This document shows positions 35,814 through 54,064 of a stretch of DNA of 64,000 nt, piece by piece (the first letter of the stretch is position 1; the number at the start of each line of letters is the position of its first letter). Made by a program: the position numbers and the translations under genes. The notes beneath the pieces were generated by a model. The model saw only the letters and a program-made list of their open reading frames with translations, made no database searches and was not told the origin of the DNA. The DNA lies in NCBI GenBank assembly GCA_007859995.1, contig SMSL01000018.1, positions 1 through 64,000 on the forward strand, given 5' to 3'. Source of the DNA: Candidatus Brocadiaceae bacterium S225 (GTDB taxonomy: Bacteria > Planctomycetota > Brocadiia > Brocadiales > Scalinduaceae).

Positions 35814-36112
35814 GATATATTTTTCATAAATTAAATTTATTATTGCAAGGATGCAATATATCATCGTTCTTAAACGAATACCTTCCTCCTTATTTTCTGT
35901 GAATTAGCGTAAGGAATTTTTTATTCCTTTGTCTTTCAGGATAAATCTGCATAATCTGCGGGTAGTTTCCATCTTTGTTCTCCATGTACAAAAGGTTCCA
36001 GCTTGCAGACAACTTAATTATTAAAGAATGCTGTTGTTTGTGTTATAATGACAAATTCAAAAATTTTTATATTATTGTCTTTAACATGAAATAAGGAAAA
36101 GGAATTCAGGCT

Positions 36113-37201: not shown

Positions 37202-37277
37202 CGACCTCTTCAGGGTCATCTGCTGAGGATAGGGAATTGCCTCAGGAAAACAAAGAGTTTATTAGAAAGGAGCTAGA

Positions 37278-38291
37278 ATGTGGTTTGGTAAAAATAAAAC
37301 GTTAAAGGAAACTAAAGATGCTGGCAGGAAAGAGTTCTCTGATGAAATCAAGGAACTACAGGTGCAAATACGTAAAGATGATAAGGCTCATGGGCATGAA
37401 TCATATAGCTGGCCTAACGGTGATACCTATGTGGGCGAGTGGATTGGAGGCAAGAAGAATGGACAGGGGGTATATACCTGGGCAGATGGGGCTATATACA
37501 TCGGTGAATGGAAAGATAACATGAAGAATGGGCACGGTACATACACCTGGCCTAACGGTGTTAAATATATGGGAGAATGGAAAGATAATAAAAAACATGG
37601 ACAGGGCACCTGTAGCTGGCCTAACGGTGATATATATATGGGTGAATATAGTGAAGGAAAGAGGCAAGGGCAAGGAACATATACCTGGAAAGATGGTGCT
37701 ATATACATCGGCGAATGGGAAGATGACCGCCGGAATGGACAAGGTACGGAAACTTATGCAAACGGTGATAAATATGTGGGTGCGTGGAGAGGTGGTCAGC
37801 GGAATGGACAAGGTATAGAGAATTATGCAAACGGTGATACATACGTGGGAGAATGGAAGGATGGCCAGAGAAATGGTGAAGGAGTATATACCTGGGCAGA
37901 CGGTGATAGATATGTGGGCGAGTGGAAAGATGATAAGCGGAATGGACAGGGTACAGAAACTTATGCAAACGGTGATACATATGTAGGAGAGTGGAAAGAT
38001 GGCAAGAGGAATGGAGAAGGTACTTCTGTGTTTGAAGATGGTGATACTTATGTAGGTGAATGGAAAGATGACGAGATACATGGACAAGGATCGGCTGATT
38101 TTGCAAACGGTGATACATATGTAGGAAAATGGAAAGATGGCAAGAGGGACGGGCGGGGAACATATACCTGGGCGAATGGTAATGCGTATGTGGGCGAATG
38201 GAGAGATGATAAGCGGAATGGACACGGGACATGGACTTTGGCAGACGGTACTAAACACGAGGGAAAATGGGAAAATGATGAGATGTCATGA
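37278..38291 (+). CDS. MORN repeat protein (12 repeats)
   Basis: This encodes 337 aa. After a ~45-residue charged lead with no signal peptide, a half repeat is followed by 12 full 23-residue MORN units of the type YVGEWKDGKRNGQGTYTWANGD (shortened: YxGEW...NGxGxY), ending in a partial 13th. MORN arrays form beta-sheet solenoids that bind membranes or proteins. The DNA shows the matching 69-base period, so recombination can change copy number. The partner is unknown. GAAAGGAG precedes the ATG. Confidence 0.93.
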   Translation: MWFGKNKTLKETKDAGRKEFSDEIKELQVQIRKDDKAHGHESYSWPNGDTYVGEWIGGKKNGQGVYTWADGAIYIGEWKDNMKNGHGTYTWPNGVKYMGEWKDNKKHGQGTCSWPNGDIYMGEYSEGKRQGQGTYTWKDGAIYIGEWEDDRRNGQGTETYANGDKYVGAWRGGQRNGQGIENYANGDTYVGEWKDGQRNGEGVYTWADGDRYVGEWKDDKRNGQGTETYANGDTYVGEWKDGKRNGEGTSVFEDGDTYVGEWKDDEIHGQGSADFANGDTYVGKWKDGKRDGRGTYTWANGNAYVGEWRDDKRNGHGTWTLADGTKHEGKWENDEMS

Positions 38292-38347
38292 GAACAAAGA
38301 ATCCAGGTAATCTTAATAAATTTTTATAAGACAGGAATCAAGACTTT

Positions 38348-39550
38348 ATGAAATTAAACTCAACTAAACTCAAATTCAGAACACTTTGCCCTCCGCTTTC
38401 TCTTGCTAATCGTATTAAAGAGGGTTTGCCCCGTCTTATTCTAGATCGCTTACCGGAGGATCATGATTTTACAGAAACAGGTTGGTGTAAGCTTCGGGAT
38501 AGCCAGGGCGCATTTCTCAGCTGGGGGTGTATTGATCCCGTTAACAACGCCATGCAGCTAATATCGAGTAGTGAAGGCGATCCCGGCGTGGACCTTGTCT
38601 TACGGTTTGAGAATGCCTTAAAAAAACGTTCTGTTCAGGAAACCTCAAAGAAGGAAGTGGTTCGCCTTGTAAACGGCCCAGGCGACAATCTTTCCGGATT
38701 CTTTCTGGATTCTTACGGCAGTACGCTGATACTATCACTGGAGAGCTGGGCGCTGTCTGACCTGGTTGATTATAATCTCCATAAAGTTATGGCTACCTTG
38801 AAACCCGAGCACATCATCCTCAAGATCCGTGAGAAAGGACGCAAACTCAAAGGCAAACTTCAGGAGAGAGCCCTGCTCGGGATGCCTATGGAAGGTAAAA
38901 TTCGTGTTCAGGAAAACGGCATCAGCTATCTTGTGCAGCCAATGGGCAGTCTCGATACAGGACTCTTTTTTGATTTGAGGGGGGCAAGGAAAGAGTTTGC
39001 TCAGAATGCAAAGGGCAAGAGTGTCTTAAATCTTTTTTCTTATACCGGAGCGTTCAGCCTTACCGCTGCAATCGCAGGAGCGAGTCAGGTAGTTTCAGTC
39101 GATACGTCACCGGAATGTCATAAATGGGCCAGGGAAAATTTTGAACTCAACAACATTGATCACAAAGCAGAACGATTTCGTTTCATAAAGGATAATGTAT
39201 TTAACTACATTGAAAAACTGGTGAAGCGTTCTGAGTCTTATGAACGCATTATTCTCGACCCGCCAGTACGTTCAATAGCCGGAACAGGGCGCTTTTTTCT
39301 CAAAAGCGATCTTTATAAACTGGTGGCCTCATGTCTGAAAATTATGTCACCAAAGGGGCGTCTCCTCGTCACAGACAACACCATGCAGGGTACCGCAGCC
39401 AAGCTCACTCATAAGATCAGTAAAGGTTCTGAGGCGGCAGGCATTCCCTGCACAATTATCAAAACATTTGAACCAGAGCCGGACTTTCCTGTTCATCCTT
39501 TCTGGCCAAAAGGTCAAGGCGTGATTGCCATGGAAGTAGAGAGGACCTGA
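38348..39550 (+). CDS. RlmI-like class I rRNA large-subunit methyltransferase
   Basis: This encodes 400 aa. The C-terminal half has SAM-binding LNLFSYTGAFSLTAA, VVSVDTSPECHKWARENFELN and a catalytic ILDPPVRS segment, matching the RlmI/RlmK-type 5-methylcytosine 23S rRNA methyltransferases. The first half contains an EEHI-type domain ending in GLFFDLRGAR. The catalytic Cys normally found after the DPP segment is not evident, so the modification may differ. SAM-dependent methylation of RNA is likely. Confidence 0.82.
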   Translation: MKLNSTKLKFRTLCPPLSLANRIKEGLPRLILDRLPEDHDFTETGWCKLRDSQGAFLSWGCIDPVNNAMQLISSSEGDPGVDLVLRFENALKKRSVQETSKKEVVRLVNGPGDNLSGFFLDSYGSTLILSLESWALSDLVDYNLHKVMATLKPEHIILKIREKGRKLKGKLQERALLGMPMEGKIRVQENGISYLVQPMGSLDTGLFFDLRGARKEFAQNAKGKSVLNLFSYTGAFSLTAAIAGASQVVSVDTSPECHKWARENFELNNIDHKAERFRFIKDNVFNYIEKLVKRSESYERIILDPPVRSIAGTGRFFLKSDLYKLVASCLKIMSPKGRLLVTDNTMQGTAAKLTHKISKGSEAAGIPCTIIKTFEPEPDFPVHPFWPKGQGVIAMEVERT

Positions 39551-39573
39551 TACAGGAAAGCATTCCTGCCTGC

Positions 39574-39870
39574 TCAAGCAAATACGTTGAGTGATACCGT
39601 TCCGGTACAGACCGGTTGTTGTTGATTTGCTTCAGGATTTTCTTCTTGTTCTTGATCCGTATCAAGCTTTTCATTGGAATTCGTTTCAGTTTCAGTTCCA
39701 ATGGAAAGTTCTAGCGCCCTGTCGCTGAACTCAGCTGAGTCAATATATCTGTTTTGTATGGACGGTAGGATCTTTTTAATATTATTCTCTTCCGTACGCC
39801 TGTCTATAGTGATGGTTGCAAATGATTCTTTAACTGCGGTTGCCAGTTGGTTCATACCTGATAAGTGCAT
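39574..39870 (-). CDS. Hypothetical acidic protein
   Basis: This encodes 98 aa, soluble and acidic (TETETNSNEKLDTDQEQEENPEANQQQ in its middle). It starts MHLSGMNQLATAVKESF, looks helical up to SDRALEL, and ends TGTVSLNVFA. I recognise no family. A perfect AAAGGAG ribosome site lies 8 bases upstream, which supports the gene. It is convergent with the methyltransferase gene and leaves only 23 bases between them. Confidence 0.6.
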   Translation of the reverse strand: MHLSGMNQLATAVKESFATITIDRRTEENNIKKILPSIQNRYIDSAEFSDRALELSIGTETETNSNEKLDTDQEQEENPEANQQQPVCTGTVSLNVFA

Positions 39871-40490
39871 AACTTTTGACTCCTTTCAGCTGCCTAAATA
39901 ATTTGTGATATGTTTATGACTCTACACGGTCTCAAGCCCTGCGTTATAGTCGCCAGAATTTTTCTATTAGTACTGATCGCAACTGTTGTACCATTGTCTA
40001 GTTAATTGTTTTCGAAATATTACCGGAAGCCGGTGAATATCCGTATCTAAATTAGTAATGCCTTGATTCCTCAATCCATGGCCCAGATTGCAGAGCGGAT
40101 CACATCTGGACGGACTCTCAATTTAAATTTTAATATTTAATTGCCTGCCTCACATTATGATATATATACTCATTTTTTAAACTAAAGTGTCTAATAACAT
40201 AACAGGGAAAGACTGTGTTGTTGACAGATGTCTATGTCTGACAGCCGGAAGGGCAGTTAGATTAGTAAATCGTAATACTTGCATCCATCTTCAATTCCTA
40301 ACTCTTAGTTTGTCTTTCCTGTCAGACGTGCTACCTGGCCGGTGCGCTTTCTGAGGTTTTTGTAAATGAAAAGAGATAAAGTTCAGACACTTAAACATGG
40401 ACAGAAAGGTAGACGCTCTGAAGTCATGAAAGGCTTTAATTATGGAGCGCATCATCCATGATGATGAGTATTACAGCAGGGACACCTTAT
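39871..40490. other. Gene-poor spacer
   Basis: 620 bases with no coding frame or clear hairpin that I can support. It lies between the acidic hypothetical gene and a dead transposase. Confidence 0.4.
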
Positions 40491-41110
40491 ATGGCTACCA
40501 TTCAGGCAAAACACACAAACGGTCATAAATATTGCTATATAGTCGAGTCCGGACATGTAAACGGCAAGCCAAAGCCAATCGTCCTGTCATCTTCTGGGCA
40601 AAGCCAACGATCTATTTAGTCGGTTACAAGGACTTACTGAAGGACTGCGTCTAAAATCCTACTCACATGGTGCAGTAGCTGCACTACTCAACGTGGCACA
40701 TAAATTAGATACCACTACGATAATCAATAAATACGTAAAGTCTCAGAGATCATACTATGCCGGAAAAATCTACCAGAAACAATCTCACCGTCGGCATTAC
40801 ATTATTGCTGGGATCAATCGGAAGAATTTGTATGCCTACAGGTAAAAAAGGCTGGTGGGATTGGGCAAAAACAACTTCCTGTGAATATCTGCTCAGGTGC
40901 GGTTTGAGCAAAGTAAACAGCCAGTATTTTTAGGATTTAATGGATTCGTTACCTGTAGATGCAATAGCAAAAATCAAACTGGAATTATTAGAAAACGTTT
41001 TCAAGGTATATGATTTAGAGAGATTAAAGTCAGGGCAGGTAAGGGGTATATATCAAGCCTTGGAAAAGGCAAGCCTAATAAAATTATTAATACATTCAAC
41101 TTATGTTTAG
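40491..41110 (+). pseudogene. Decayed IS1634-type (IS4-group) transposase
   Basis: Starting at ATG 40491 the DNA reads MATIQAKHTNGHKYCYIVES, then VNGKPKPIV, typical of IS1634-family transposases. The match continues in shifted frames: LRLKSYSHGAVAALLNVA, then NNLTVGITLLLGS, then WWDWAKTTSCEYLLR, an in-frame stop at about 40931, and DLMDSLPVDAIAKIKLELLENVFK to 41040. At least two frameshifts, one nonsense codon and loss of the C-terminal catalytic part make it inactive. Confidence 0.8.
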
Positions 41111-41163
41111 TGTTGATGAAAACAAAAACCTGGGATTTTATATATATTTTTCATAAAATTATC

Positions 41164-41193
41164 TTGACATAGCGATGTGCGTGTGTTTATTAT
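41164..41193 (+). promoter_or_regulatory. Strong sigma70-type promoter
   Basis: Perfect TTGACA (41164-41169) and TATTAT (41188-41193) with an 18-base spacer. No open reading frame follows before the terminator at 41350. Confidence 0.6.
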
Positions 41194-41199
41194 CGCGAG

Positions 41200-41396
41200 C
41201 ATTCTGACAAGGAGAGTCAGATTATTGGTGTGGAGATAGCAAAGATGCTGTATTTATTTTACTCTGTCGTGGTATTTAAATAATGACACTCATGCTGAAA
41301 ACACTCAAATGCTCTTTTAATAAGTTTGTAATATATACATTTGCAGATAAGCCCCGGTACCTTCCTATCTGACAGGGAGACACCGGGGCTTTTTTT
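41200..41396 (+). ncRNA. Candidate small RNA transcription unit
   Basis: About 197 bases framed by a consensus-like promoter (41164-41193) and a strong terminator (41350-41396). Near the 5' end, CTGAC-AAGGAGA-GTCAG (41204-41220) forms a hairpin with a GGA loop; GGGA also occurs in the terminator loop. No Rfam-like family is obvious to me. It could instead be the leader of the TonB receptor gene 200 bases further on, with the terminator acting as an attenuator. Confidence 0.4.
41350..41396 (+). terminator. Rho-independent terminator
   Basis: AGCCCCGGT (41350-41358) pairs with ACCGGGGCT (41382-41390) and is followed by a T-run. No protein gene ends just upstream, only a dead transposase, which points to an RNA transcript ending here. 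Confidence 0.85.
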
Positions 41397-41594
41397 ATTT
41401 AAACGGTGTCTCTGCTTAGTGGTGTTATCTTATGTACTAGGAATTTATTGGTAGTTTCGGGAACGTGCTGTGATAGAGAGTCATTAGCACATAGTGGAGC
41501 AACCTTATTAATGCGATTCCTGCCAAATGTTATAAGATTGTATCTTTATATAGGATGTAGCTTCAAAACATTTTGATTCAGAAAGAATCCATTT

Positions 41595-43709
41595 TTGAGA
41601 ATACTAAAAACCTTAACTCTATTTCCAGTTTATTCTGGGTTTATCACACTTGTTATGATTGTTTTCAGTCTAACATTTTCACTCTTTTCAGAAGAAACTT
41701 CAACCTCTACTGAAAGACAGAAAACATCTTATGAAGTCCGGGATGAGCTTCGATGGCTACAGGCAGAAGCGATGGTAACTATTGCTACAAAATATGAATT
41801 ACCGATCAGCAGGGCACCGGGCATCATTACCGTAATTACAGCTGAAAAAATTAAACATATGGGTTTTAGAACGTTGACGGATATCTTAAAAACAGTACCT
41901 GGCTTTGATATATCTATGAACAACAATGGTATAAAAGAGATTGGTGTAAGGGGTGTTCTTAATTCACTAAACGTGAAGATTTTAATAGATGGACATTCCG
42001 TTAACGAACCATCTTCTGGCGAGGCAACATGGAATTTTCATGATCTTGTTGTTGAGAATATTAAAAAAATAGAGATTATTAGAGGTCCAGGATCAGCAAT
42101 ATATGGCCAGAATGCATTTCTGGCCGTTGTTAACGTCATAACAAAAGATACTGATGACATTGATGGATTTCAGTTTACAGTAAGTGGCGGCTCTTATGAC
42201 ACTCAGAATTATAATATGTTATTTGGAAAGGAGTTCGGAGACCTCAAAATTTCAGGATTCCTTGATTATTATGATACAGAGGGTTTTAGTAAAACTATTG
42301 AACAAGATATTATTTTCGGACATCCTGCCTCTTTGAGTCCCGGAAGATCTCAAAACCGCAAGGAAAAAACAGACCTGAATATAAAACTCTCTTATAAAAA
42401 CCTGGAAATTAAAGGTAAATATATGAAGAAGAGGAAGGAGGGCTATATAGGTTTCCATGACGCATTAAGTGATGATACTATGTTTAAAGATACTTATATA
42501 TTTGGAGAACTCAATTACAAATTATTCTTTGGCGACAAACTTAGCATGATACCTAAGGTATATTATGACCAATATAATATAGGAACCAATTTTTATGAAA
42601 CTCGTCCGGATGGTTTTTATTCTGAACCTTTTCCTGGTTTTATAGTAAACTTTCCTGACGGCATAAAGGGAACTTCAGGATCCAAATTAAGGACTATTGG
42701 TTTTGAAAATCAACTTAATTATAATGTATTTGAAGGGAATAAATTAACGTTTGGTTTTCAATATGAATGGATACACCAGCACGATATATCATATCATGCT
42801 AATGCTAATCCGTTAGAACGAACCCCGCTTACTTCATTTACGGATTTTTCTAAGGATTTACCATTTACCAGCAAGAAGACAAGGCACATTTGGGCTCTTT
42901 TCCTGCAGGATGAGTGGAATATAAATAAAGATATCGATTTAACAGTGGGGGTCAGATATGATCGTTTTTCACGGTTTGGAAGCACAACTAATCCAAGGGT
43001 TGGAGTGATATGGAGGTTTATAGAAGATGCTCATCTGAAGCTCCTCTTTGCAACCGCCTTCAGGGCACCCAATTTTGATGAATTATTTACGATAAATAAT
43101 CCAGTCTATGTGGGCAACCCTAACCTTGATCCGGAAAAGATAAATACATTTGAGATCGGACTTGGCTATAATTTTACCAAACACATAAGTGCAAACATAA
43201 ATTACTTTTTTAACAGAATTAGAGACAGGATTGTGTTAGTGGAAAATTCCGGAATAGACAGACCAGAAAACTCTGCAGGTGCAAGGATTAAGGGTTTAGA
43301 AACTGAATTGAAGGCAGATTTAGGACATGATAATTACTTATATGCAAATTATACATTTCAAAAGGCTGAAGAAACCAGGGGGAGAGAGAGATTGCCTTTT
43401 ACTCCTGAGCATAAGGCAAATTTTGGTTTGAATGTAGGGTTCTGGAAATATGCTAATGCCAACTTGAATACTTTTGTCAGTGGGCCTAGGCCAAGGGAAG
43501 ATGGAGATATTAGGGGCAATTTACCTTCATACGCCCTAGTCAATCTAACGCTTATTGGAAGAAATTTCATAGATAATTTCGAGATTAGAGGGTCTGTTTT
43601 TAATCTTTCTGATAAAAGCTATGATGATCCTGCGCCGAAAGATACTGTTTCCACTGATTATCCACAACAAGGAAGATCGTTTATGTTTGAATTACGATAT
43701 GAGTTTTAA
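41595..43709 (+). CDS. TonB-dependent outer-membrane receptor
   Basis: This encodes 704 aa: signal peptide, a plug domain (residues ~65-190: ISRAPGIITVITAEKIK, GFRTLTDILKTVPGF, GVRGVLNSLNVKILIDG, IRGPGSAIYGQNAFLAVVNVIT), and a beta-barrel with GVRYDRFSRFG, ATAFRAPNFDELF and a terminal aromatic ELRYEF typical of barrel insertion. Such receptors import siderophores, cobalamin, metals or oligomers with TonB energy; the substrate is unknown. The start is TTG 41595 without a good ribosome site. The next genes encode periplasmic binding proteins, so it may deliver their ligand. Confidence 0.92.
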   Translation: MRILKTLTLFPVYSGFITLVMIVFSLTFSLFSEETSTSTERQKTSYEVRDELRWLQAEAMVTIATKYELPISRAPGIITVITAEKIKHMGFRTLTDILKTVPGFDISMNNNGIKEIGVRGVLNSLNVKILIDGHSVNEPSSGEATWNFHDLVVENIKKIEIIRGPGSAIYGQNAFLAVVNVITKDTDDIDGFQFTVSGGSYDTQNYNMLFGKEFGDLKISGFLDYYDTEGFSKTIEQDIIFGHPASLSPGRSQNRKEKTDLNIKLSYKNLEIKGKYMKKRKEGYIGFHDALSDDTMFKDTYIFGELNYKLFFGDKLSMIPKVYYDQYNIGTNFYETRPDGFYSEPFPGFIVNFPDGIKGTSGSKLRTIGFENQLNYNVFEGNKLTFGFQYEWIHQHDISYHANANPLERTPLTSFTDFSKDLPFTSKKTRHIWALFLQDEWNINKDIDLTVGVRYDRFSRFGSTTNPRVGVIWRFIEDAHLKLLFATAFRAPNFDELFTINNPVYVGNPNLDPEKINTFEIGLGYNFTKHISANINYFFNRIRDRIVLVENSGIDRPENSAGARIKGLETELKADLGHDNYLYANYTFQKAEETRGRERLPFTPEHKANFGLNVGFWKYANANLNTFVSGPRPREDGDIRGNLPSYALVNLTLIGRNFIDNFEIRGSVFNLSDKSYDDPAPKDTVSTDYPQQGRSFMFELRYEF

Positions 43710-43972
43710 GTGATTTCTTTAAATGCGGCTAATATACCAAGTGAGAACGGTAAGCTGACGAATTTGATTCCAGATCAGAAATGTTCGATAATCAAGTGAA
43801 ACACAATATAGGGGGGTAGTCCGGTCAAGTAAACCAGGTCATTTTTTGGAATTCCAATCAGATTCGATGGGCTTAGACATTTGATTCGTTTCCTCTGCCA
43901 CATCAACAATATTTTTAAATAAAAAGATTGGTTGACGCAATTATCTCATTTATCCGCTTATTTTATCAATAA

Positions 43973-44797
43973 ATGATTATTCGACTAATTATAACTATTT
44001 GCCTGTTCGTTGGTACTTCTTTATCTTGGATTGATTACGGACTATTTGCCAATCCCAGATCTACGGTCTATTTTTATAATCCGGAAACTAATATCAACAA
44101 TTTTGCATCCCTTAAGAGCGAGTTTGATGAGTACCTTTCACATCATGGCCCCTTCCAATTTCAACCATTCAGTGATAGAGATACTTTCGAGAAATTTATA
44201 ATTGAAAGTAATGATGGTGTCTTCATATTATCAAGTTGGCACTTTCATGATCTTTTTGTTAAATTTCCAATTGATTCTGTGTGTGTGGGAACCTCAAAAG
44301 GAAAATCAACTCAAAAAAAAATCCTGTCTTTGAATGGAATCACTACTAACGATAATTTTGATTTATTAATGGGAAAGAAAGTTGCTTCTGCAGGTAATGA
44401 GGAGTATACCAGGAATGTCATTAAGCAAATGCTAGGAGAAGAGAAAGCCCATCTCGTAGATTGTCTTAAGATACTAAGGGTCCCAAAAGAGATTGACGCA
44501 TTAATGGCCCTTGGTTTTGGTATGGCAGATTTGGCTATAACTTCAGAGAATAGTCTTTCCAAACTGGCCATATTAAACCCTAAGCAGTACAAAGGGCTTA
44601 GATTAATTGCAAAAAGCAACGAAACCTTACTGCCGATTTTAGCAACACCAAAACATAGAAATGATAATATAGATTTACTGTTAACCGTAATTGAAAAAAT
44701 GGGAACAAATCCTGAAGGTGTAACGAAATTGAAAATGCTTGGCATTGATGGATGGAAAAGACTGGGTAAAATAGAAAAGACTAGTTTGGAAGATTGA
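43973..44797 (+). CDS. PhnD-like periplasmic substrate-binding protein
   Basis: This encodes 274 aa with a signal peptide at the N-terminus (IITICLFVGTSLS). The layout is of type II binding proteins such as PhnD: FNPETNI-like first strand, DGVFILSSWHFHD, NFDLLMGKKVASAGNEEYTRNVIKQML and MADLAITSENSLSKLA. Phosphonate, phosphite or another oxyanion is a typical ligand. No ABC permease or ATPase is nearby; the next genes are a second binding protein and a histidine kinase. A sensor role for ligand is therefore inferred. Confidence 0.72.
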   Translation: MIIRLIITICLFVGTSLSWIDYGLFANPRSTVYFYNPETNINNFASLKSEFDEYLSHHGPFQFQPFSDRDTFEKFIIESNDGVFILSSWHFHDLFVKFPIDSVCVGTSKGKSTQKKILSLNGITTNDNFDLLMGKKVASAGNEEYTRNVIKQMLGEEKAHLVDCLKILRVPKEIDALMALGFGMADLAITSENSLSKLAILNPKQYKGLRLIAKSNETLLPILATPKHRNDNIDLLLTVIEKMGTNPEGVTKLKMLGIDGWKRLGKIEKTSLED

Positions 44798-44845
44798 TAA
44801 ATCTTATTTGTTATCGGTTTGCCAACACTGAATATTAACGAAAAA

Positions 44846-45802
44846 ATGAGAATATTTCTTAGCTATACTAATTATCAACATATTACGTTCGCATATATGT
44901 TTTCAGCTTTTATTGCTTTGACATTATTGTTTTCGAATACAGTATTTGCCATAGACAACGGCAAAGTTGTTGTCCTTGATACGGATATGACAATAGGCAA
45001 ATACGTTATTGTACATGAAGTATTTAAATCCAAGATAGCCAATATAGCAGACGAAATTTATCTTGGTAGCAAATCTATTAATAAAAGAAAGATTAAAAAG
45101 AAGATTCGCCAAATAGACCCTGATGTAGTTTATTGTATAGGTTCACGCGCATATCAGCTTGCGCATGATGTCACAAAAAATGTAGATTTGGTTTTCTCAT
45201 CAGCAATAAACTATCACCGCTTTCCAATGAGGAAAAATACTTATGGTATTTCCAATGAGTTGCCTCAAAAAATGCAGATGATGATGTTTCGTTACTTCTT
45301 CCCGGACATTGAAAAAATTGGGGTGCTATATAGCAAGACTTATAACAAAGAATGGCTGGATACGGCCATAGAGAACGCAGGGGAGGTAAATATTGAAATT
45401 ATCGGTACGTCTATTAAAAAACCAAAGGAGTTAAGCTCTGCATTGGAAGCGTTAATGCTAAAAGTAGATGCACTCTGGTTACTTGCAGACCCAGTTGTAC
45501 TAAGCAATGAAGAGTCTATAACTAAAATTTTCAAAAAGAGTAAAATTGAAAAAATTCCTGTTTTCACATACAATAACGTATTTGCTAAACTTGGAGCAAC
45601 TATGATTATCTCTGCCGATATTCCAACAATAGGATTACAAGCGGCTGACATGGTACTCGATAGGCTTGCTAACAAAGCAATCACTCAAAGAGTCCAACCA
45701 CCTGCAGGTTCTTATATTATTCTGAATCTTAAAAAAGTGGAGGAATACGGATTAAATTTAAACGACGAAGCATTAGATTCTGTAAACGAGATTATAAGAT
45801 GA
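44846..45802 (+). CDS. ABC-type periplasmic substrate-binding protein (TrpX/COG2984-like)
   Basis: This encodes ~318 aa with a signal peptide (FIALTLLFSNTVFA). The pattern DPDVVYCIGSRAYQLA, DLVFSSAINYHRFP, EKIGVLYSKTYNKEW, DALWLLADPVVLS, PVFTYNNVFAKLGATMIISADIPTIGLQAADM matches type I binding proteins of the COG2984 group. A TTG 27 bases upstream is in frame, but ATG 44846 gives a better signal peptide. Stop and histidine-kinase start overlap by 4 bases, so binding protein and kinase are translationally coupled. The ligand is unknown. Confidence 0.8.
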   Translation: MRIFLSYTNYQHITFAYMFSAFIALTLLFSNTVFAIDNGKVVVLDTDMTIGKYVIVHEVFKSKIANIADEIYLGSKSINKRKIKKKIRQIDPDVVYCIGSRAYQLAHDVTKNVDLVFSSAINYHRFPMRKNTYGISNELPQKMQMMMFRYFFPDIEKIGVLYSKTYNKEWLDTAIENAGEVNIEIIGTSIKKPKELSSALEALMLKVDALWLLADPVVLSNEESITKIFKKSKIEKIPVFTYNNVFAKLGATMIISADIPTIGLQAADMVLDRLANKAITQRVQPPAGSYIILNLKKVEEYGLNLNDEALDSVNEIIR

Positions 45803-47877
45803 GTAAACAAGTGCGCGTAAAAAATAGCATACGCAAGAAACTACTCTTGACAATGATTGGTTTAATTTTTCTATTGCTTGCAATATTGACATTCATCCAA
45901 ATATCAACTCAGAAGAGATTTTTAGAAAAGGAGCTGGATCGCCGTATAGCCCTGATGAAAGAGATGCTTGAAGAACGTGGAAGAACCATATCTCACAACC
46001 TGGCCCGTCAGACAGAGAATGATGTTGCTTCTTTTAATCTTTCTAATGTTACGGAAATGATACATAAAACAGTTAAGGAAGATAATGGATTGAGCTATGT
46101 CATACTAATGGATTATTCCAGAAAGGCTTATATACATACGTCAAAACCTGAGCTGGAGCAAGAGATTCTTTCGGATAGAGAAGACTTATATGCTGCTGAT
46201 CAAAAAAACGCAACATTCAATAATTATGAGATGGATGGAACGGCTTTTAAGGAATTTATTACTCAAATAAACATCAGCACAGAACCATGGGGAGTGCTTA
46301 GGCTAGGTTTTTCCTTAGCTGAACTTAATAATGAAATAAGTAATTCCAAGATAGGTATATTAAAACAGACCAAAAACATTATTATAAGATCCGTTATTAC
46401 TCTAGCCGTATTTGTTGCTGTAGGTGTGGCTCTCGTTTTTTTAATATCGATCAGACTATCTAGTCCAATTATTGCTTTAACAAAATCGGCTAGATTATTA
46501 GCTAAAGGTGATTTTACTGTAGCAAACAATATCAATATAAAATCAAACGATGAGATCGGAATACTTGCTACCTCATTTATTGAGATGGCTAAAGACCTGG
46601 AAAATCATAACCGAATATTAGAACAAAAGGTGGAAGAGAGAACACAGCAACTACGTGATGCTAATAATGAACTGCATGAACTGGACAAAGCAAAGTCTGG
46701 TTTTTTGAATACAGTTTCACATGAATTAAGAACACCACTGACTTCAATAGTAGGATTTGCAAAGATCATTAAGTCGAGATTTGACAAGTTTGTTCTTCCT
46801 CAAATTCAGCCAGAAGATAGTAAAGCTATAAAGAAGGTAATGCAGATGAAAGATGACATTAATGTAATAATCTCTGAGGGAGATCGGTTAACAAACCTGA
46901 TAAATAACGTCTTAGACTTAGCAAAGATAGAGGCAGGCAAAATTGAGTGGAAGAAGGATTCATTCTCAATATATGACGTTATAGAACAGGCCGTTGCCTC
47001 TACTTCTGCCCTATTTGAACAAAAAGATATTAAGCTTATTGTAGACATAGATGCAGATCTGCCTGTGTGTATTGGCGATAAGGACAGATTAGTACAGGTA
47101 GTCATTAATCTAATCTCAAATGCCGTGAAGTTTACTGAGAAAGGGTCTATTAGGCTCAGTGCCAGAGTCGAAAATAGAGAGATGATCGTCAGTGTTGTAG
47201 ATACTGGCATTGGCATGAAACAGGCCGATCTTGAGAAGGTATTCGATAAATTTAAGCAGGTGGGTGATACACTTACTAACAAACCGGTAGGGACAGGACT
47301 CGGGCTGTCTATCTGCGAACAAATTATCAAGCAACATGGTGGTAAAATCTGGGCCACAAGTGAGGTTGGTAAAGGAAGTTCCTTTTCGTTTACACTTCCC
47401 GTTAGTACTGAGCTATATAATACCAAAAGAAGAGAAAAAGAAAGCGAAGCGACAACTTGCAATTTGAAGAGCAGTACCACAAATAAATATTCATCTAGTA
47501 CAAATAATAATAAAAACATTCTTGTTGTAGATGATGAAAAGCACATTAGAACGCTTATTAAGAAGGTGTTTGAATCAGAAGGGTTTGGGATAGTAGAGGC
47601 AAAGAATGGATTTGAGGCTATTGCTATGGCTAAAAAATTTAGGCCAGACATAATAATACTTGATATCCTGATGCCAGACATAAACGGTTTGGATGTTGTT
47701 GCCGTGTTAAAGAACGACAAAAACACTAATACAATTCCTATTATTATTAATTCTATAGAAGACATGAAACCTGAGCACTCTGAAATAGATATTGCAGGAT
47801 ATTTTACAAAACCTGTAGATATGGATGAGTTGATTAGGACAACGAAAGATATTTTTTTAAGAAGGTATAATCATTAA
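45799..47877 (+). CDS. Hybrid sensor histidine kinase with C-terminal receiver
   Basis: This encodes 692 aa: TM1 (~13-33), a ~160-residue periplasmic domain, TM2 (~195-217), HAMP, coiled coil, HisKA with His308 (SHELRTPLTSIVGFA), HATPase (NLISNAVKFT, DTGIGMK, GTGLGLSICEQII) and a receiver with phospho-acceptor Asp622 (ILDILMPDING). It would autophosphorylate in response to a periplasmic signal and pass phosphate to its own receiver and likely to the stand-alone regulator at 49332. Coupling to the binding protein suggests that ligand-bound protein is the input. Confidence 0.93.
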   Translation: MSKQVRVKNSIRKKLLLTMIGLIFLLLAILTFIQISTQKRFLEKELDRRIALMKEMLEERGRTISHNLARQTENDVASFNLSNVTEMIHKTVKEDNGLSYVILMDYSRKAYIHTSKPELEQEILSDREDLYAADQKNATFNNYEMDGTAFKEFITQINISTEPWGVLRLGFSLAELNNEISNSKIGILKQTKNIIIRSVITLAVFVAVGVALVFLISIRLSSPIIALTKSARLLAKGDFTVANNINIKSNDEIGILATSFIEMAKDLENHNRILEQKVEERTQQLRDANNELHELDKAKSGFLNTVSHELRTPLTSIVGFAKIIKSRFDKFVLPQIQPEDSKAIKKVMQMKDDINVIISEGDRLTNLINNVLDLAKIEAGKIEWKKDSFSIYDVIEQAVASTSALFEQKDIKLIVDIDADLPVCIGDKDRLVQVVINLISNAVKFTEKGSIRLSARVENREMIVSVVDTGIGMKQADLEKVFDKFKQVGDTLTNKPVGTGLGLSICEQIIKQHGGKIWATSEVGKGSSFSFTLPVSTELYNTKRREKESEATTCNLKSSTTNKYSSSTNNNKNILVVDDEKHIRTLIKKVFESEGFGIVEAKNGFEAIAMAKKFRPDIIILDILMPDINGLDVVAVLKNDKNTNTIPIIINSIEDMKPEHSEIDIAGYFTKPVDMDELIRTTKDIFLRRYNH

Positions 47878-47917
47878 AACAAAATTAGATCTCGAAAAGA
47901 TAATTTCAAAAAAGGAT

Positions 47918-49300
47918 GTGCATACCGTAATCTGTAATATTGCAAGAGAAATGGGAGCCCACATCGTTATTTATGATGTAAATGATAAATTGATATTCAG
48001 TAATAAACATAATTTAAATGATCCAAAACATTCCAGCTCATCTTGCAGATATCCTTTAGAAATTGTTGATAATGTGATTGGATGGATAATTGGAGATAAG
48101 AGTGCCGGTAGTGTTGCTGATTTTGTAAATTTTATAGTAAATAAAGAGTATGAAGAGAAAGCACTTGTTGGCGATTTGCTAGATAAATATAAAGAAATAA
48201 CTCTTCTTTATGATATCTCAGAAGAACTGTCCGTATGCATTGAGCGAAGAGAAATTGAAGAATTAATTATTGCAGAGATCAAGAAATTGATAAAAGCAAC
48301 AAATGTGTCTATATTATTACGGGAGGATCATGAGCGGGAGAACGTCTCCGCTAGTACCTGTAACACTTCTGAAACAATAACGTGCAACATAAATGGAATA
48401 GCCGGTAGTGTGCTACTTTCAGGCAAAGCAGAAATAGTTAATGACGTAGATGCTGATCCACGGTATATTATTAGTGGTAAGGAAATATGTTCATTGATTT
48501 GTGCTCCTTTAAAGATTAAGGATAGAGTTCTTGGTGTATTAAATGTGAGTAGTGACGAACCTGTTGTTTATGAGTCTAGCGATTTGAAGATTCTCAGCAT
48601 CCTTGCATCTCAGGCGGCATCAGCAATTGAAAATACTATACTTTTCGAGAACAAATTAAAAGAAGCACAGATCAGGGCGAATTTACAACGGTACGTTGCT
48701 CCACAAATTGTTAATTCTATTGTAAATGACGGAGGAGTACTGACTTTAAAACCGGCTAGAAAAAATATTTCAATTTTATTTTCTGATATTAGGAATTTTT
48801 CTGCTACTTGTGAGAAACTTAATCCTGAACAAATTGTTACATACCTGAATGAATATTTTTCCGATATGGTAGGAATACTTTTTCATCATAATGGAACAAT
48901 AAATAAATTTGTTGGAGATATGATTGTGGCACTCTTCGGGGCACCATCCAGTTATGAAAATAGAGAGACACAAGCCATAAAGGCGGCAATTGATATGCAG
49001 AAATGTATTAATGATTCAGATACTAAATGGATTAAAGATAATTTCCGCACAGGCATAGGCATTAGTGCTGGAAGTGTGATAGTGGGAAACGTAGGCTCTC
49101 CTGACCATATGGATTATACTGCAATCGGTGATGAAGTTAATGTCGCAGATCGGCTACAATCTCTTGCTAAAGGCGGACAAATACTGGTTGAACGTAATGT
49201 GTATGAGGTAACTAAAGATATTTTCGAATTTAATAACTTTGCACATATTAAGGTAAAGGGTAGAGCCGCGCCGGTAGATATCTTTGAAGTAGTGTATTGA
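47918..49300 (+). CDS. GAF-domain adenylate cyclase (class III)
   Basis: This encodes 460 aa with three parts: an N-terminal ~115-residue region, a GAF domain (residues ~125-250: ISEELSVCIERREIEELI, CAPLKIKDRVLGVLNVSS) and a class III cyclase domain (~290-460: [41 protein letters not shown]). The Lys and Asp of the last two motifs favour ATP over GTP, so cAMP is expected. GTG 47918 sits too close to AAGGA; the true start may be earlier (an ATT/ATA frame is open back to ~47867) or later at 47951. No membrane helix. Confidence 0.85.
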   Translation: MHTVICNIAREMGAHIVIYDVNDKLIFSNKHNLNDPKHSSSSCRYPLEIVDNVIGWIIGDKSAGSVADFVNFIVNKEYEEKALVGDLLDKYKEITLLYDISEELSVCIERREIEELIIAEIKKLIKATNVSILLREDHERENVSASTCNTSETITCNINGIAGSVLLSGKAEIVNDVDADPRYIISGKEICSLICAPLKIKDRVLGVLNVSSDEPVVYESSDLKILSILASQAASAIENTILFENKLKEAQIRANLQRYVAPQIVNSIVNDGGVLTLKPARKNISILFSDIRNFSATCEKLNPEQIVTYLNEYFSDMVGILFHHNGTINKFVGDMIVALFGAPSSYENRETQAIKAAIDMQKCINDSDTKWIKDNFRTGIGISAGSVIVGNVGSPDHMDYTAIGDEVNVADRLQSLAKGGQILVERNVYEVTKDIFEFNNFAHIKVKGRAAPVDIFEVVY

Positions 49301-49331
49301 AATCAACAACGTAATAGTGGGGGGTGTATGA

Positions 49332-49712
49332 GTGCCAAAAGTATTGATTGTAGACGATGAACCAAACATAAGACTTTTATTAGAACGGATTATAGAGGAT
49401 CTTGATAATAGTGAAGTGGAAGTATTTATTGCTGAAGAGGGAGGGAAAGCCCTTAAGATTATCAAAGAAGAGAAACCAGAACTTGTATTTCTCGATATAA
49501 TGATGCCGGAAATAAACGGGTATGATGTATGTAATATTGTGAAAAATAAACTAAAACTTAAGGATGTTTACATAGTGATGCTCACTGCGAAGGGACAGGA
49601 ATTTGATAAACAAAAGGGAAACGAAGTGGGCGCTGATATTTACATGACAAAACCATTTAACCCTGATGAAATCGCTAAGAAAACCGTTGAGGTATTAGGG
49701 CTGGTTACATAA
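49332..49712 (+). CDS. Stand-alone response regulator
   Basis: This encodes 126 aa, a single CheY-like receiver: acidic pair in LIVDDEPNIR, phospho-acceptor Asp55 (VFLDIMMPEING), Thr in MLTAKGQEFD, Lys in YMTKPFNP. No output domain. GTG start with GGGGGGTG upstream; the nearby ATG is out of frame. It likely takes phosphate from the hybrid kinase and acts by protein contact. A clear palindrome lies 120 bases further at 49830. Confidence 0.9.
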   Translation: MPKVLIVDDEPNIRLLLERIIEDLDNSEVEVFIAEEGGKALKIIKEEKPELVFLDIMMPEINGYDVCNIVKNKLKLKDVYIVMLTAKGQEFDKQKGNEVGADIYMTKPFNPDEIAKKTVEVLGLVT

Positions 49713-49829
49713 AATACATTCTTTTGAGTCTGCCAGAATATTATTTGTTAATCAATTGAAGTCGCCTTATATTACACACTTGGAAAATTGCCAGTGCCTA
49801 CGTATAAACTCGGCTCGCATAAAATATAC

Positions 49830-49845
49830 GTACTATTTATAGTAC
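49830..49845. promoter_or_regulatory. Perfect palindrome in an empty gap
   Basis: GTACTAT-TT-ATAGTAC, two 7-base arms around 2 bases. It could be a regulator site or a weak hairpin. The remaining 380 bases between 49713 and 50095 show no gene. Confidence 0.35.
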
Positions 49846-50095
49846 ACTAATAATTTTTCCAGTATTATATGCAGCTTCATATATAGTTACACCCTTCTCC
49901 AGAATGGAGTTTAGGCGTCTACGCTATAGCGTTAAAACCCATCACTAAAAACATAGTAACCTCTTTAGCAGCTACTTTAGAAAGTAGATTGAGAGAAAAA
50001 GAATTTGCCCAGCCAGGCGTTTAATCAAATGCTAAAAAGACTGCATTGGTTAACTAAGTGTTAGCCGGTAAATGAATATTTGAAGAAATGGTATA

Positions 50096-50278
50096 ATGAA
50101 AATACGTTATTATATTGATCAGGAAACAGAGTTGCCTCATATATACAGCCATGGTGTTAAAGAAAGAGAAGTGAAGGATGTTATTTTATATCCGGGAGAA
50201 GATCGGCCTGGCAGAGAAGGATCAAGAGTTGCTATTGGACGAACAACTGGTGGCCATTTTCTTAAGGTAATTTTTTAA
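50096..50278 (+). pseudogene. Truncated toxin-like (DUF4258-type) gene
   Basis: The frame reads MKIRYYIDQETELPHIYSHG, then VKDVILYPGEDRPGREGSR and GGHFLKVIF before a stop. This resembles the first two thirds of small DUF4258-like proteins, some of which are toxin parts. The usual end (VPDPEPDS and onward) is missing; a GGGGACACCATA motif follows, typical of REP/mobile sequence. It may be a decayed gene rather than a functional toxin. Confidence 0.55.
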
Positions 50279-50456
50279 ATCGTGGGGACACCATACCTAT
50301 GATTTATTTAACATATTTCACAGTGTAATTGGTGAGAGATAAAAAAAGTTCTCACGCGCCGTCCAAACGACTTGTCCGGGTGGGAAGCAAGAATGAGTTG
50401 TGTCTTTAGAAAGGATAAGGGCCAAGCGCTTACGTGATATCATTAGGAAGTCCGGA

Positions 50457-51854
50457 TCACATCTCGCCGGATTGGGACTTTTTACTGTGGTGAGAATCGT
50501 CAATGCAGTTCAAAAGGTTTTGCTTAATTCCATTTAAAAGATTATCGCAATTATTTGAATCTTTCTCATCTTTAGAAATTTGTATATATTGCGTTAAGAT
50601 ATTTAAAGCATTGGATACATATTCCTTTTGCCGTTTGGTGAAGATTACAGGCCTTTCTGGTGTATATTCTATAAACTCCTTAAATTCGGAGATAAGATTT
50701 TCTTCAAGGACTGAAAGTCCATCGCCTTGTAATGCGGATACTTGATATATTGGTTCTAAGGTTTTCCCCACAAGCGCTGACATGTCTAATTTACAAGGCA
50801 GGTCTGCCTTATTCAATACCGGGAAAATAGATATATTATTATCAGTTTTCTGTAACTTAAGTTCATCAATAAATTTGACTATCTCTTTATCCTCTTTCTC
50901 AGCAGGCTTGGAATTATCAAACACAATGATTATTTTATCTGCCAGTCTTAACTGCTTTTTGCTTTCCAGGACACCAAGCTTTTCCACTTCATGATCTGTC
51001 TCTCTAATACCGGCAGTATCTATTATGGTAAATGGTATGCTGCTAATTGAGATCATTTCGTCAACGGCATCCCTGGTGGTGCCCGGCTCTTCATGCGTGA
51101 TTAACCGGTCCTCTTTCAGTAGCGCGTTAATTAACGTGGATTTGCCAGCATTTGGTTTGCCGGTAATGATCAGTTTCTGGGGTGAAGTGATCGCACAACC
51201 GAAGGCTGCAGTTGCCAGAATTTCTTTTAGTTTAATACATATGGAATTCAATGTTAATAACACTTCGACTTCGCTCAGTGTGACGTCATCCTGAGGGGAG
51301 TTGAAGGATAATCTATTATCGTATAGTTGTTCTTTGTTTTTATCACATTTTTCTAACTTTTCAATTATTTTGTGTATATAAGCAGACAATGCTCCATTAT
51401 ATTGATCGAGAAGGACTTTAACGCCCAATTTCGTTCTTGCCTCAGGTATTTCAAGAAGAGCTTCTTCCTGAATACGGTCAATTTTGCTGTTAATAAGGGG
51501 TCGGTTGACCAGCTCTTTCCAGTGAACTTCATTTGCCCCTGCCGATACCACGCATTCAAGTGTCTTTTTTATTGCCAGGATTCCGCCATGGCAATTAACT
51601 TCGACTAAATCTTCTCCGGTAAAACTGTCTTGTTCTCTGAGTACATTTACAATTACTTCATCAACGATGGAACCGTTTGAACAGATGTCGCCGTAATAGA
51701 GCCTTTTTGACTCTGCATTTCTCAAATCTTTCTGCTTCTTACCCTTGAATACCGTATTTACAATTTCAAGTGAGTCCGGCCCGGATACCTGTATTACTCC
51801 GATTCCTCCTTCACCAATTGGTGTGGTAATAGACGCAATGGTTTCTTTTTTCAT
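50457..51854 (-). CDS. mnmE: tRNA modification GTPase MnmE (TrmE), atypical C-terminus
   Basis: This encodes 465 aa. The N-terminal tetrahydrofolate-binding domain (PIGEGGIGVIQVSG), helical domain, and G domain (GKPNAGKSTLINALL, EPGTTRDAVDEM, DTAGIRETDHEVEKLG, NKAD) are present. With MnmG it installs the 5-carboxymethylaminomethyl group on wobble uridine. The C-terminus ends NLLNCIDDSHHSKKSQSGEM; the usual final FCIGK with its essential Cys is missing. The last ~20 residues look replaced by unrelated sequence. Function may be reduced, or the ending may reflect sequence damage. Confidence 0.85.
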   Translation of the reverse strand: MKKETIASITTPIGEGGIGVIQVSGPDSLEIVNTVFKGKKQKDLRNAESKRLYYGDICSNGSIVDEVIVNVLREQDSFTGEDLVEVNCHGGILAIKKTLECVVSAGANEVHWKELVNRPLINSKIDRIQEEALLEIPEARTKLGVKVLLDQYNGALSAYIHKIIEKLEKCDKNKEQLYDNRLSFNSPQDDVTLSEVEVLLTLNSICIKLKEILATAAFGCAITSPQKLIITGKPNAGKSTLINALLKEDRLITHEEPGTTRDAVDEMISISSIPFTIIDTAGIRETDHEVEKLGVLESKKQLRLADKIIIVFDNSKPAEKEDKEIVKFIDELKLQKTDNNISIFPVLNKADLPCKLDMSALVGKTLEPIYQVSALQGDGLSVLEENLISEFKEFIEYTPERPVIFTKRQKEYVSNALNILTQYIQISKDEKDSNNCDNLLNGIKQNLLNCIDDSHHSKKSQSGEM

Positions 51855-51958
51855 TTCTTATAAAATGGTGATTTTCGTTTTGGAAAGGAGTAATTGTCAG
51901 GTTGGTTATTTACGGATCAAGAATCGTTCGATTCAGGTAAAAAGCTATTAAAAAAACT

Positions 51959-53176
51959 TCATGTATGGTAGTCCGCGTTGATCTTCACGTATTCTTTTGA
52001 CAGATCGCACGTCCACAATGTGGCGCTTTTGTTACCCATTCCAAGATGTAATTGAATCGTGATCTCTTTCTTCTTCATTGCACTGTTTAATTTATTTGGG
52101 GCAGGTGTCACCGGTAATCCCTTTTTATATATCGTAATTTTGTTAATGGCTAATTTCAGTTTAGATTCGTCAAGAGTAACTCCGGCATAGCCTGCTGCCG
52201 AGACTATCCTTCCCCAATTTGGGTCTTCACCGTTTATGGCGGTTTTTACTAAGGGGGATTCCGCTATTGTTCGTGCAATCTTCTTTGCATCTGAAATTGA
52301 TTTTGTTTCATGTATCTCAATTTGGACAAACTTGGTAGCGCCTTCGCCATCTTTTACGATCTCCTTTGCCATTTTCAGGGTTACGTGATCAAGCGCTTCC
52401 TGGAACAGTGCAAGGTCGCTTTTAGTGGAAGATGTTATAGCGCGATTGTGTGCCATTCCATTTGCAAGAATCGCTACCATATCACTCGTACTCATGTGAC
52501 CGTCAACGGTGATTTGATTAAAAGAGCTTTCTGTTGATTTTTTTATGCAGGATCTTAACGTATTTAAAGAGATTGCAGCGTCAGTAGTGATAAAGCAAAA
52601 CATTGTAGCCATATTCGGCGAGATCATACCGGAGCCTTTGGCTATTGCTCCAATAGTAACTTCCTTACCGCCTATCTTTGCCTTAACGGCAATATGTTTG
52701 TGGACGAGGTCGGTTGTCATTATAGCCTTCGCAATGTTTATTGCATGGGTATTCTTGTTACCTAAATGCTCAGAGGATTTGCTTATGCCTGATTTTATCT
52801 TTGCCATGGGAAGGTGATGTCCTATTATACCTGTAGAGGCGACTAAGACTTCATCCGGCTTGATGTTCAGGTGTTTGGATGCAAGAAGGGCCATTGTTTC
52901 CGCGTCCTTTTCTCCCTTCTTTCCTGTACACGCATTAGCGTTGCCGCTATTTACGACTATTGCTTGTACCGTGCCGTTTTGTATAGCATTTCTGCTCTGT
53001 TTTATTGGTGCGGCAACTATCTGGTTTGTTGTAAAAAGGGCAACAGCCTTGCAAGGCTGTTCAGAAAAGATAATACCGATATCGTGGTTTCTCTTATCTC
53101 TTTTTAAACCGCAGTGTACGGAACCGGCTTTGAAGCCTTTTGGCGCAATAACGTTTCCGGGGATTGTATTGATCAT
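51959..53176 (-). CDS. argJ: Bifunctional ornithine acetyltransferase/N-acetylglutamate synthase
   Basis: This encodes 405 aa of the ArgJ family, which recycles or makes the acetyl group of N-acetylglutamate in arginine synthesis. The autoproteolysis site with nucleophilic Thr is in KGSGMISPNMATM; other marks are VNSGNANACTG, ASTGIIGHHLPM and GEDPNWGRIVSAAGYAG. ATG 53176 gives the normal family start (MINTIPGNVIAPKGF); the frame extends further but that part overlaps the arginine decarboxylase gene. Supplying arginine next to a gene that uses it (53236) is notable. Confidence 0.92.
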   Translation of the reverse strand: MINTIPGNVIAPKGFKAGSVHCGLKRDKRNHDIGIIFSEQPCKAVALFTTNQIVAAPIKQSRNAIQNGTVQAIVVNSGNANACTGKKGEKDAETMALLASKHLNIKPDEVLVASTGIIGHHLPMAKIKSGISKSSEHLGNKNTHAINIAKAIMTTDLVHKHIAVKAKIGGKEVTIGAIAKGSGMISPNMATMFCFITTDAAISLNTLRSCIKKSTESSFNQITVDGHMSTSDMVAILANGMAHNRAITSSTKSDLALFQEALDHVTLKMAKEIVKDGEGATKFVQIEIHETKSISDAKKIARTIAESPLVKTAINGEDPNWGRIVSAAGYAGVTLDESKLKLAINKITIYKKGLPVTPAPNKLNSAMKKKEITIQLHLGMGNKSATLWTCDLSKEYVKINADYHT

Positions 53177-53235
53177 AAGAATATTCCAGGTACAACTTTG
53201 CCTGTCTGGCTTGTTATTGCAGGCTTGCACTAAGG

Positions 53236-53784
53236 TTAAGGAAGGAATACAGCGGCGGCTACAACCGTAGACCATAAACCATTTTTGTCACCTCTTGCCG
53301 ATTGGGTGGTATTTCTTGATTGTACTATTTTACCACTCATCCGATAAATCTCTTTCCGTTCGTCGTAGTTCTTTTCCGGATCGAATTCAACGCCTTGCGT
53401 ACTGGCAAGCATTGATGCCGCCAGGTCTTCCGAATAATCACCTGATGTTTCATCCGTTTCTCCATTTGCGTGATGTTCACTCAAGTATCCGTAATGATTC
53501 GGTTCGGCAGGTACCGCCAGGCCGACTGATGCGGATATCATTCTATGCGGTTCATTGGTTTCATTAGTACTCATTACACAGAATACTATCTGGCCTGGTT
53601 GTAGAAGTCTAATACCCTGCGCTTTTGATACAATCCTGCAATTTGGCGGAAAGATACTTGACACCCTGACGAGATTACATTTCTCTATACCGGCCTTTCT
53701 GAGAGCAAGTTCCAGGGACTGCAATTTTTCTTTATGCCTGCCTACTCCTTTTGTGAAGAATATTTTTTTTGGTACTGATTGCAT
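53236..53784 (-). CDS. Pyruvoyl-dependent arginine decarboxylase
   Basis: This encodes 182 aa of the PvlArgDC family. The self-cleavage site giving the pyruvoyl group lies in [11 protein letters not shown] (Ser-Ser), and the family features [20 protein letters not shown] and [20 protein letters not shown] are clear. It converts arginine to agmatine, the first step of polyamine synthesis. It lies upstream of argJ on the same strand, with speD and speE 3 kb away on the opposite strand. The 700-base gap after it (53785-54484) has only a possible remnant (54065-54238). Confidence 0.92.
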
Positions 53785-54064
53785 TTTTTTATCCTAAATT
53801 AAAGTGAATTTATTGGATATCCAGAGGCTCGTTTATCCTAGATCCCCGCTAAAAACATACGGGAATTACAGCTTTAAGGCTTAAATAAAATATGTAAAAC
53901 CTGGCCGGACTCTACTGTTATATAATAAGAAGGGTACAATATAATTTTGTTTATCAAATCTGTCAAAAGAAAATTTCTTAATAAGTTTAAGTTTTTTGTC
54001 TTTTGCCCAATTTCCTTTCCAAAGACTTAACCTTACGGTAACAGTCAAGCTGGGTATATATGAA

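Follow-up and report, generated by a model that had tools for sequence, protein, structure and literature searches.

Periplasmic proteins of the PhnD-like and COG2984-like families are classically components of importers, and the locus studied here raises the question of what two of them do in a gene cluster that encodes a membrane kinase. The cluster lies within a window of 64,000 nucleotides (the whole stretch of DNA that was analysed) from the genome of an anammox bacterium belonging to the lineage of Candidatus Scalindua. Its six genes all stand on the plus strand, in the order TonB receptor, PhnD-like protein, COG2984-like protein, hybrid kinase, GAF-cyclase and single-domain regulator (Table 1).

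A sequence-only reading had proposed these genes and this order, together with a 4-base overlap between the second binding protein and the kinase and a lack of ABC permease and ATPase genes. Pfam matches and the list of open reading frames (ORFs) confirmed the genes and their arrangement; the overlap is the ATGA at 45799-45802, common to the COG2984-like and kinase genes, and no ABC permease or ATPase gene was present within the cluster. Scans of the region for promoters and terminators gave no excess over shuffled sequence. Apparent remnants of a transposase gene, recognised by eye, occupy window positions 40400-41100, just upstream of the TonB receptor, and MORN repeats (12 matched stretches) make up nearly all of a 337-residue protein at 37278-38291.

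Table 1 Genes and domains of the cluster (window coordinates).
Feature	Coordinates	Strand	Length, start and evidence
TonB-dependent outer-membrane receptor, BtuB/CirA-like	41595..43709	+	704 aa, TTG start; Pfam Plug and barrel
PhnD-like periplasmic binding protein	43973..44797	+	274 aa; PF12974; predicted fold; Foldseek
COG2984/ABC_sub_bind periplasmic binding protein	44819..45802	+	327 aa; PF04392 1.8e-24
Membrane hybrid histidine kinase	45799..47877	+	HAMP, HisKA, HATPase_c, Response_reg
Kinase periplasmic sensor domain, predicted sCache fold, ~aa 32-202	45892..46404	+	sCache_3_2 below cut-off; AF2; Foldseek
GAF-class IIIb adenylate cyclase (predicted)	47918..49300	+	460 aa from GTG; Guanylate_cyc 2.7e-27, GAF
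Single-domain response regulator	49332..49712	+	126 aa, GTG start; Response_reg 6.8e-27

The receptor and the two binding proteins

The TonB receptor (Plug, 1.9e-20; barrel, 3.3e-54) has a plausible N-terminal export signal, judged by eye, and its closest solved chains are the colicin I receptor and BtuB. Pfam matched the Plug and barrel only, with no N-terminal STN signalling domain, and FecA-type TonB signalling was rejected on that ground. We tried to name the ligand from the receptor family, and BtuB, CirA and heme, the nearest families with a name, all scored far under their curated cut-offs; the neighbouring genes gave no answer either, their content, among the neighbours listed, depending on the lineage and forming no common pathway. 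TonB dependence suggests only a ligand whose size or dilution puts it beyond the reach of porins. In a Scalindua genome (L035:1523-7388), the reading frames of the TonB receptor that precede the cassette appear broken into pieces.

Both binding proteins carry plausible N-terminal export signals (by eye) and match substrate-binding families of importers (PF12974 and PF04392). The PhnD-like assignment made in the sequence-only reading was weak by sequence alone (PF12974 at 27.0 bits, exactly at the curated cut-off), but the predicted structure (AF2, pLDDT 94.9) confirmed it, with the best Foldseek E-values going to ArrX (7e-17) and AioX (2.8e-16). AioX is reported to be the sensing component, acting on the kinase AioS (PMC5908839). 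Because these closest folds are periplasmic binding proteins that signal through a kinase, they argue for sensing rather than import.

Arsenic sensing by analogy with AioX was considered and rejected: the fold matches, yet no conserved counterpart of the AioX pocket Cys106 was found at the level of alignment columns, no Cys standing in the invariant or 90% conserved columns of 80 PhnD-like sequences, and no arsenic molybdoenzyme genes were apparent among the ORFs of window 36000-54000, whose translations were read by eye. In Desulfonema magnum (L179:8993-11588), a 515-residue ORF apparently interrupts the PhnD-like gene, as an inserted element would.

Genome-wide search for partner permeases

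The pair could be orphan parts of an ABC importer that shares a permease and ATPase from elsewhere, with the kinase as a chance neighbour or a regulator of import. Besides the family membership of both proteins, two circumstances favour this reading: PF02653 permeases, the COG2984 type, occur in some other hosts, and the window genome is just 79% complete, for which reason the permease test was repeated in relatives.

The search of the window genome yielded no matching permease or ATPase. It gave seven permease matches, each adjoining its own transporter genes: a pair of PF02653 permeases that comes with a separate binding protein and two ATPase-like genes, and five PF00528 matches, all in loci with binding-protein or ATPase genes of their own, which from their gene content we take to be of the Opp, NitT/Tau, OpuB and Mod types. 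Among six relatives with the cassette, PF02653 was present in one (a single pair, in G038) and absent from G010, G015, G036, G021 and the single-contig G026, in a search that was positive in 12 of 14 control genomes. The closed G026 has two PhnD-COG2984 loci, with no PF02653 and no clear PhnE; furthermore, PhnE (TIGR01097) reached its cut-off in none of the seven genomes searched. On these searches of the window genome and its relatives we reject an ABC importer with a distant permease, and the orphan-parts explanation as a whole keeps very little probability. The argument from missing permeases is strongest for anammox bacteria, because four of six other hosts, outside the order, do have PF02653 permeases.

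Distribution of the cassette

A PhnD-like profile search of GTDB genomes returned 123 relatives, of which the best 80 were taken as loci; the locus set, with duplicates removed by hand, comprised 82 loci from about ten phyla. Relatives were found in Planctomycetota, Nitrospinota, Nitrospirota, Desulfobacterota, Verrucomicrobia, Lentisphaerae, Acidobacteria, SAR324 and others, as well as in methanotrophic and sulfur-oxidising Gammaproteobacteria. Conservation of gene order had been suggested as a check on the sequence-only reading, and it holds far beyond chance: in 76 of the 82 loci PhnD and COG2984 lie next to each other, often with a 4-base overlap. The order TonB-PhnD-COG2984-kinase-regulator is kept in other Scalinduaceae genomes, in one of which two contigs share the locus, and recurs, with variations, in about ten phyla.

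For the flanking genes, we counted the 52 loci with more than 2.5 kb of upstream and 4 kb of downstream sequence. A TonB gene stands near the pair in 45 of them, which bears out the proposed link to the receptor, and a gene with the window-type sensor domain in 39, usually directly after the pair; the other 13 have no sensor within six genes. Cassette genes also turned up in records titled Klebsiella pneumoniae (L118) and Marinifilum (L047), which are binned metagenome contigs whose names are probably wrong.

Core TonB-PhnD-COG2984 loci with no sensor nearby (for example L076-L078 and L037-L039) fit another explanation, in which the binding proteins are periplasmic carriers that hand the ligand brought in through TonB to a non-ABC transporter whose gene lies elsewhere, and the kinase only regulates uptake while sensing something else. 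There is a possible precedent: the highest TM-score among the PDB matches listed for the PhnD-like model (0.74) belongs to the sterol-binding BstB, a PhnD relative proposed to be a sterol carrier with a non-ABC partner (PMC10942540). Against a carrier role, five genomes were checked in which a PhnD-COG2984 locus has no sensor beside it, and all five have a sensor gene elsewhere. G026, G036 and G038 each contain two PhnD-COG2984 loci, one without an adjoining kinase, and exactly two strong sensor matches, of which one lies elsewhere; in Methylobacter tundripaludum OWC-G53F and in Acanthopleuribacter, a pair has no sensor next to it and a single sensor is unlinked. A contig end explains the seeming gap in G016, where the kinase begins at the end of contig C8 and continues on C6; in Desulfonema magnum, TonB genes adjoin a sensor-chemoreceptor. 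No constant transporter gene stands beside the pair among the gene tables examined. With the matched divergence reported below, these observations make a carrier role improbable.

The sensor domain and its exchangeable outputs

Pfam matched the periplasmic domain of the window kinase to sCache_3_2 below the cut-off (E 7.4e-5; 23.3 bits versus 28.4), and the same family matches 27 of 53 sensor members. In the predicted structure (AF2, pLDDT 89.7) two long helices flank an sCache-like domain, and Foldseek matched the model to WalK, CitA and DcuS; the window kinase is thus predicted to hold a Cache fold between two membrane helices.

Across the loci, the sensor is joined to a histidine kinase (36), a chemotaxis signalling domain (4), a kinase with GGDEF (3), SpoIIE (3), a class III cyclase (3) or AAA_35 (1), and nine of the non-kinase fusions were confirmed directly by Pfam. 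The output changes at least ten times on the PhnD tree, a quick tree with many weakly supported inner branches. The fusion to the ATPase-like AAA_35 domain (L065:2216-4282) is an unusual output. Methanotroph loci L058, L059, L062, L064 and L067 hold extra GAF-SpoIIE or other proteins, and several of them a STAS protein and an RsbW-like ATPase, which suggests a partner-switching output.

Matched divergence of sensor and binding proteins

We compared pairwise distance matrices between loci, using 2000 permutations, for 50 loci and for the 37 in which the sensor protein also contains a kinase domain. Over 50 loci the correlations were 0.78 for PhnD-COG2984, 0.76 for PhnD-sensor and 0.73 for COG2984-sensor, and over the 37 all three were about 0.8 (ranges over both sets, 0.76-0.83 for PhnD-sensor and 0.78-0.81 for PhnD-COG2984). 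The sensor and its own kinase domain, in contrast, correlated at r = 0.41 (37 loci). None of the 2000 permutations reached the observed values. In its divergence the sensor kept closer to two separate proteins than to the kinase domain to which it is fused, which speaks against a kinase that senses something other than what the binding proteins carry. Because shared vertical descent contributes to all of the r values, this contrast outweighs their absolute size; the kinase domain may simply recombine more.

The cyclase, the regulator and the proposed step to cAMP

Where the cyclase starts is uncertain, as its frame stays open upstream of the GTG at 47918, and the N-terminal ~110 residues of the protein match no Pfam family. 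Aligned with Cya2, the protein keeps both metal Asp, the adenine-specifying Lys/Thr and the catalytic Asn and Arg (motifs read from the alignment: SDI, GDM, NKF, YT seven before VN, and DR). We read these motifs as adenylate specificity, taking Glu/Gly to underlie the native guanylate specificity of Cya2. The window cyclase is predicted to be an active adenylate cyclase, and the genome encodes seven proteins with a cNMP-binding domain. A second class III cyclase is encoded in the window at 26613-27248 on the minus strand, 40% identical in the catalytic domain.

Close cyclase orthologues (56-59%) stand elsewhere in three Kuenenia-type genomes, each followed by a 126-residue regulator, so cyclase and regulator form a movable unit. 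The cyclase belongs to the cassette in some loci and not in others: the other Scalinduaceae copies of the locus have none. Both facts favour the view that the kinase part works as described and that an unrelated signalling unit happens to follow it. Yet the genes share a strand and are separated by short gaps; the acidobacterial locus L075 repeats the order of the window, GAF-cyclase and regulator included; cyclases are also found at L096 and L066; and the cyclase is fused to the sensor itself in L097, L102 and L120. Sister COG2984-kinase loci, moreover, end in a receiver-cyclase. We regard an unrelated unit as possible but rather unlikely, and functional coupling of the cyclase to the window kinase as likely. 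The single-domain regulator comes after the kinase in L033, L034 and L050, and after the cyclase in L152-L154.

A probable sensory cassette with a fixed front end

Taken as a whole, the data are best explained by a binding-protein-dependent sensory cassette rather than an importer, and we consider this quite probable. The sequence-only reading had proposed an outer-membrane-to-cAMP sensing system for a scarce nutrient, and its sensing part is supported: the gene content, the conserved order of the front end, the matched divergence, the exchange of outputs and the partner permeases missing from close relatives, a closed one included, indicate binding proteins that serve a sensor and not an ABC importer. 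The step to cAMP has indirect support, from the adenylate specificity residues, the three sensor-cyclase fusions and the sister systems, set against the Scalinduaceae copies and the separate location in Kuenenia-type genomes.

According to our model, a ligand would cross the outer membrane via the TonB receptor and be bound in the periplasm by the PhnD-like and COG2984-like proteins, which may take that ligand or two related ones. Once loaded, the binding proteins would dock with the membrane sensor at its sCache domain, a contact that we infer from the matched divergence and 1:1 occurrence. In the window the sensor is a hybrid histidine kinase, which would phosphorylate both its own receiver and the single-domain regulator; the regulator, or its state, could plausibly set the GAF-adenylate cyclase and so cAMP. 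Elsewhere, as the fusions demonstrate, this front end acts through a kinase, a diguanylate-cyclase hybrid, an adenylate cyclase, a chemotaxis receptor or a SpoIIE phosphatase. We further lean, with less assurance, towards a previously undescribed cassette, present in about ten phyla, whose constant front end of a TonB receptor and two different binding proteins without a transport role serves one kind of sCache sensor, while whole output modules (kinase, cyclase, chemoreceptor, phosphatase) are exchanged.

In routine annotation, PhnD-like and COG2984-like genes become parts of ABC importers, and a large set of them, across phyla, is better read as sensors. Since the same front end occurs with chemoreceptor, cyclase and kinase outputs, one ligand or class of ligands probably matters alike to anammox bacteria, methanotrophs, sulfate reducers and sulfur oxidisers. 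The natural chemoreceptor and kinase fusions offer ready readouts for finding it.

Comparison with known sensory systems

A search of open-licence papers, preprints excluded, for TonB with PhnD, COG2984, Cache and methanotroph found no published description of the cassette. FecA-FecR-FecI is a TonB-linked system of transcriptional signalling and shares with the cassette the coupling of an outer-membrane receptor to cytoplasmic signalling; the cassette differs in a receptor without an STN match and in showing no anti-sigma partner.

TorT-TorS, XylFII-LytS, LuxP-LuxQ and ChvE-VirA are binding-protein-dependent sensor kinases. We know of no sensor of this class in which a TonB receptor goes together with two different binding proteins, nor, to our knowledge, does any swap its output among kinase, cyclase, MCP and phosphatase. 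GltB-GtrS is another member (PMC7927077). In all of these systems a periplasmic binding protein presents the ligand to a membrane sensor, as would happen in the cassette. The TtrS and ThsS kinases have a PhnD-type domain as part of the kinase itself, whereas the PhnD-like protein of the cassette is separate. These tetrathionate and thiosulfate kinases resemble the cassette in using a PhnD-type domain in kinase sensing (PMC5408782).

Closer at hand are the sister COG2984-kinase loci of Brocadiales, which, like the cassette, have a COG2984-like gene followed by a membrane kinase and regulators, with a TonB gene upstream in several and often a receiver-adenylate cyclase too; unlike it, they are without a PhnD-like protein and have a different periplasmic sensor domain. 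One lies on contig C16 of the window's own genome (L046:3640-12230) and encodes two TonB receptors, a COG2984-like protein, a membrane kinase and two receiver proteins, with no PhnD; related loci ending in a receiver-adenylate cyclase are L148-L151, L155, L156 and L158.

The arsenic sensors AioX, ArxX and ArrX differ from the cassette in their single binding protein, their lack of a TonB receptor and their arsenic-enzyme neighbours. ArrX and AioX are nonetheless the closest solved folds to the window PhnD-like protein, and in AioX-AioS-AioR, ArxX and ArrX, as in the cassette, a PhnD-fold protein without an importer stands beside a sensor kinase and a regulator (PMC5908839).
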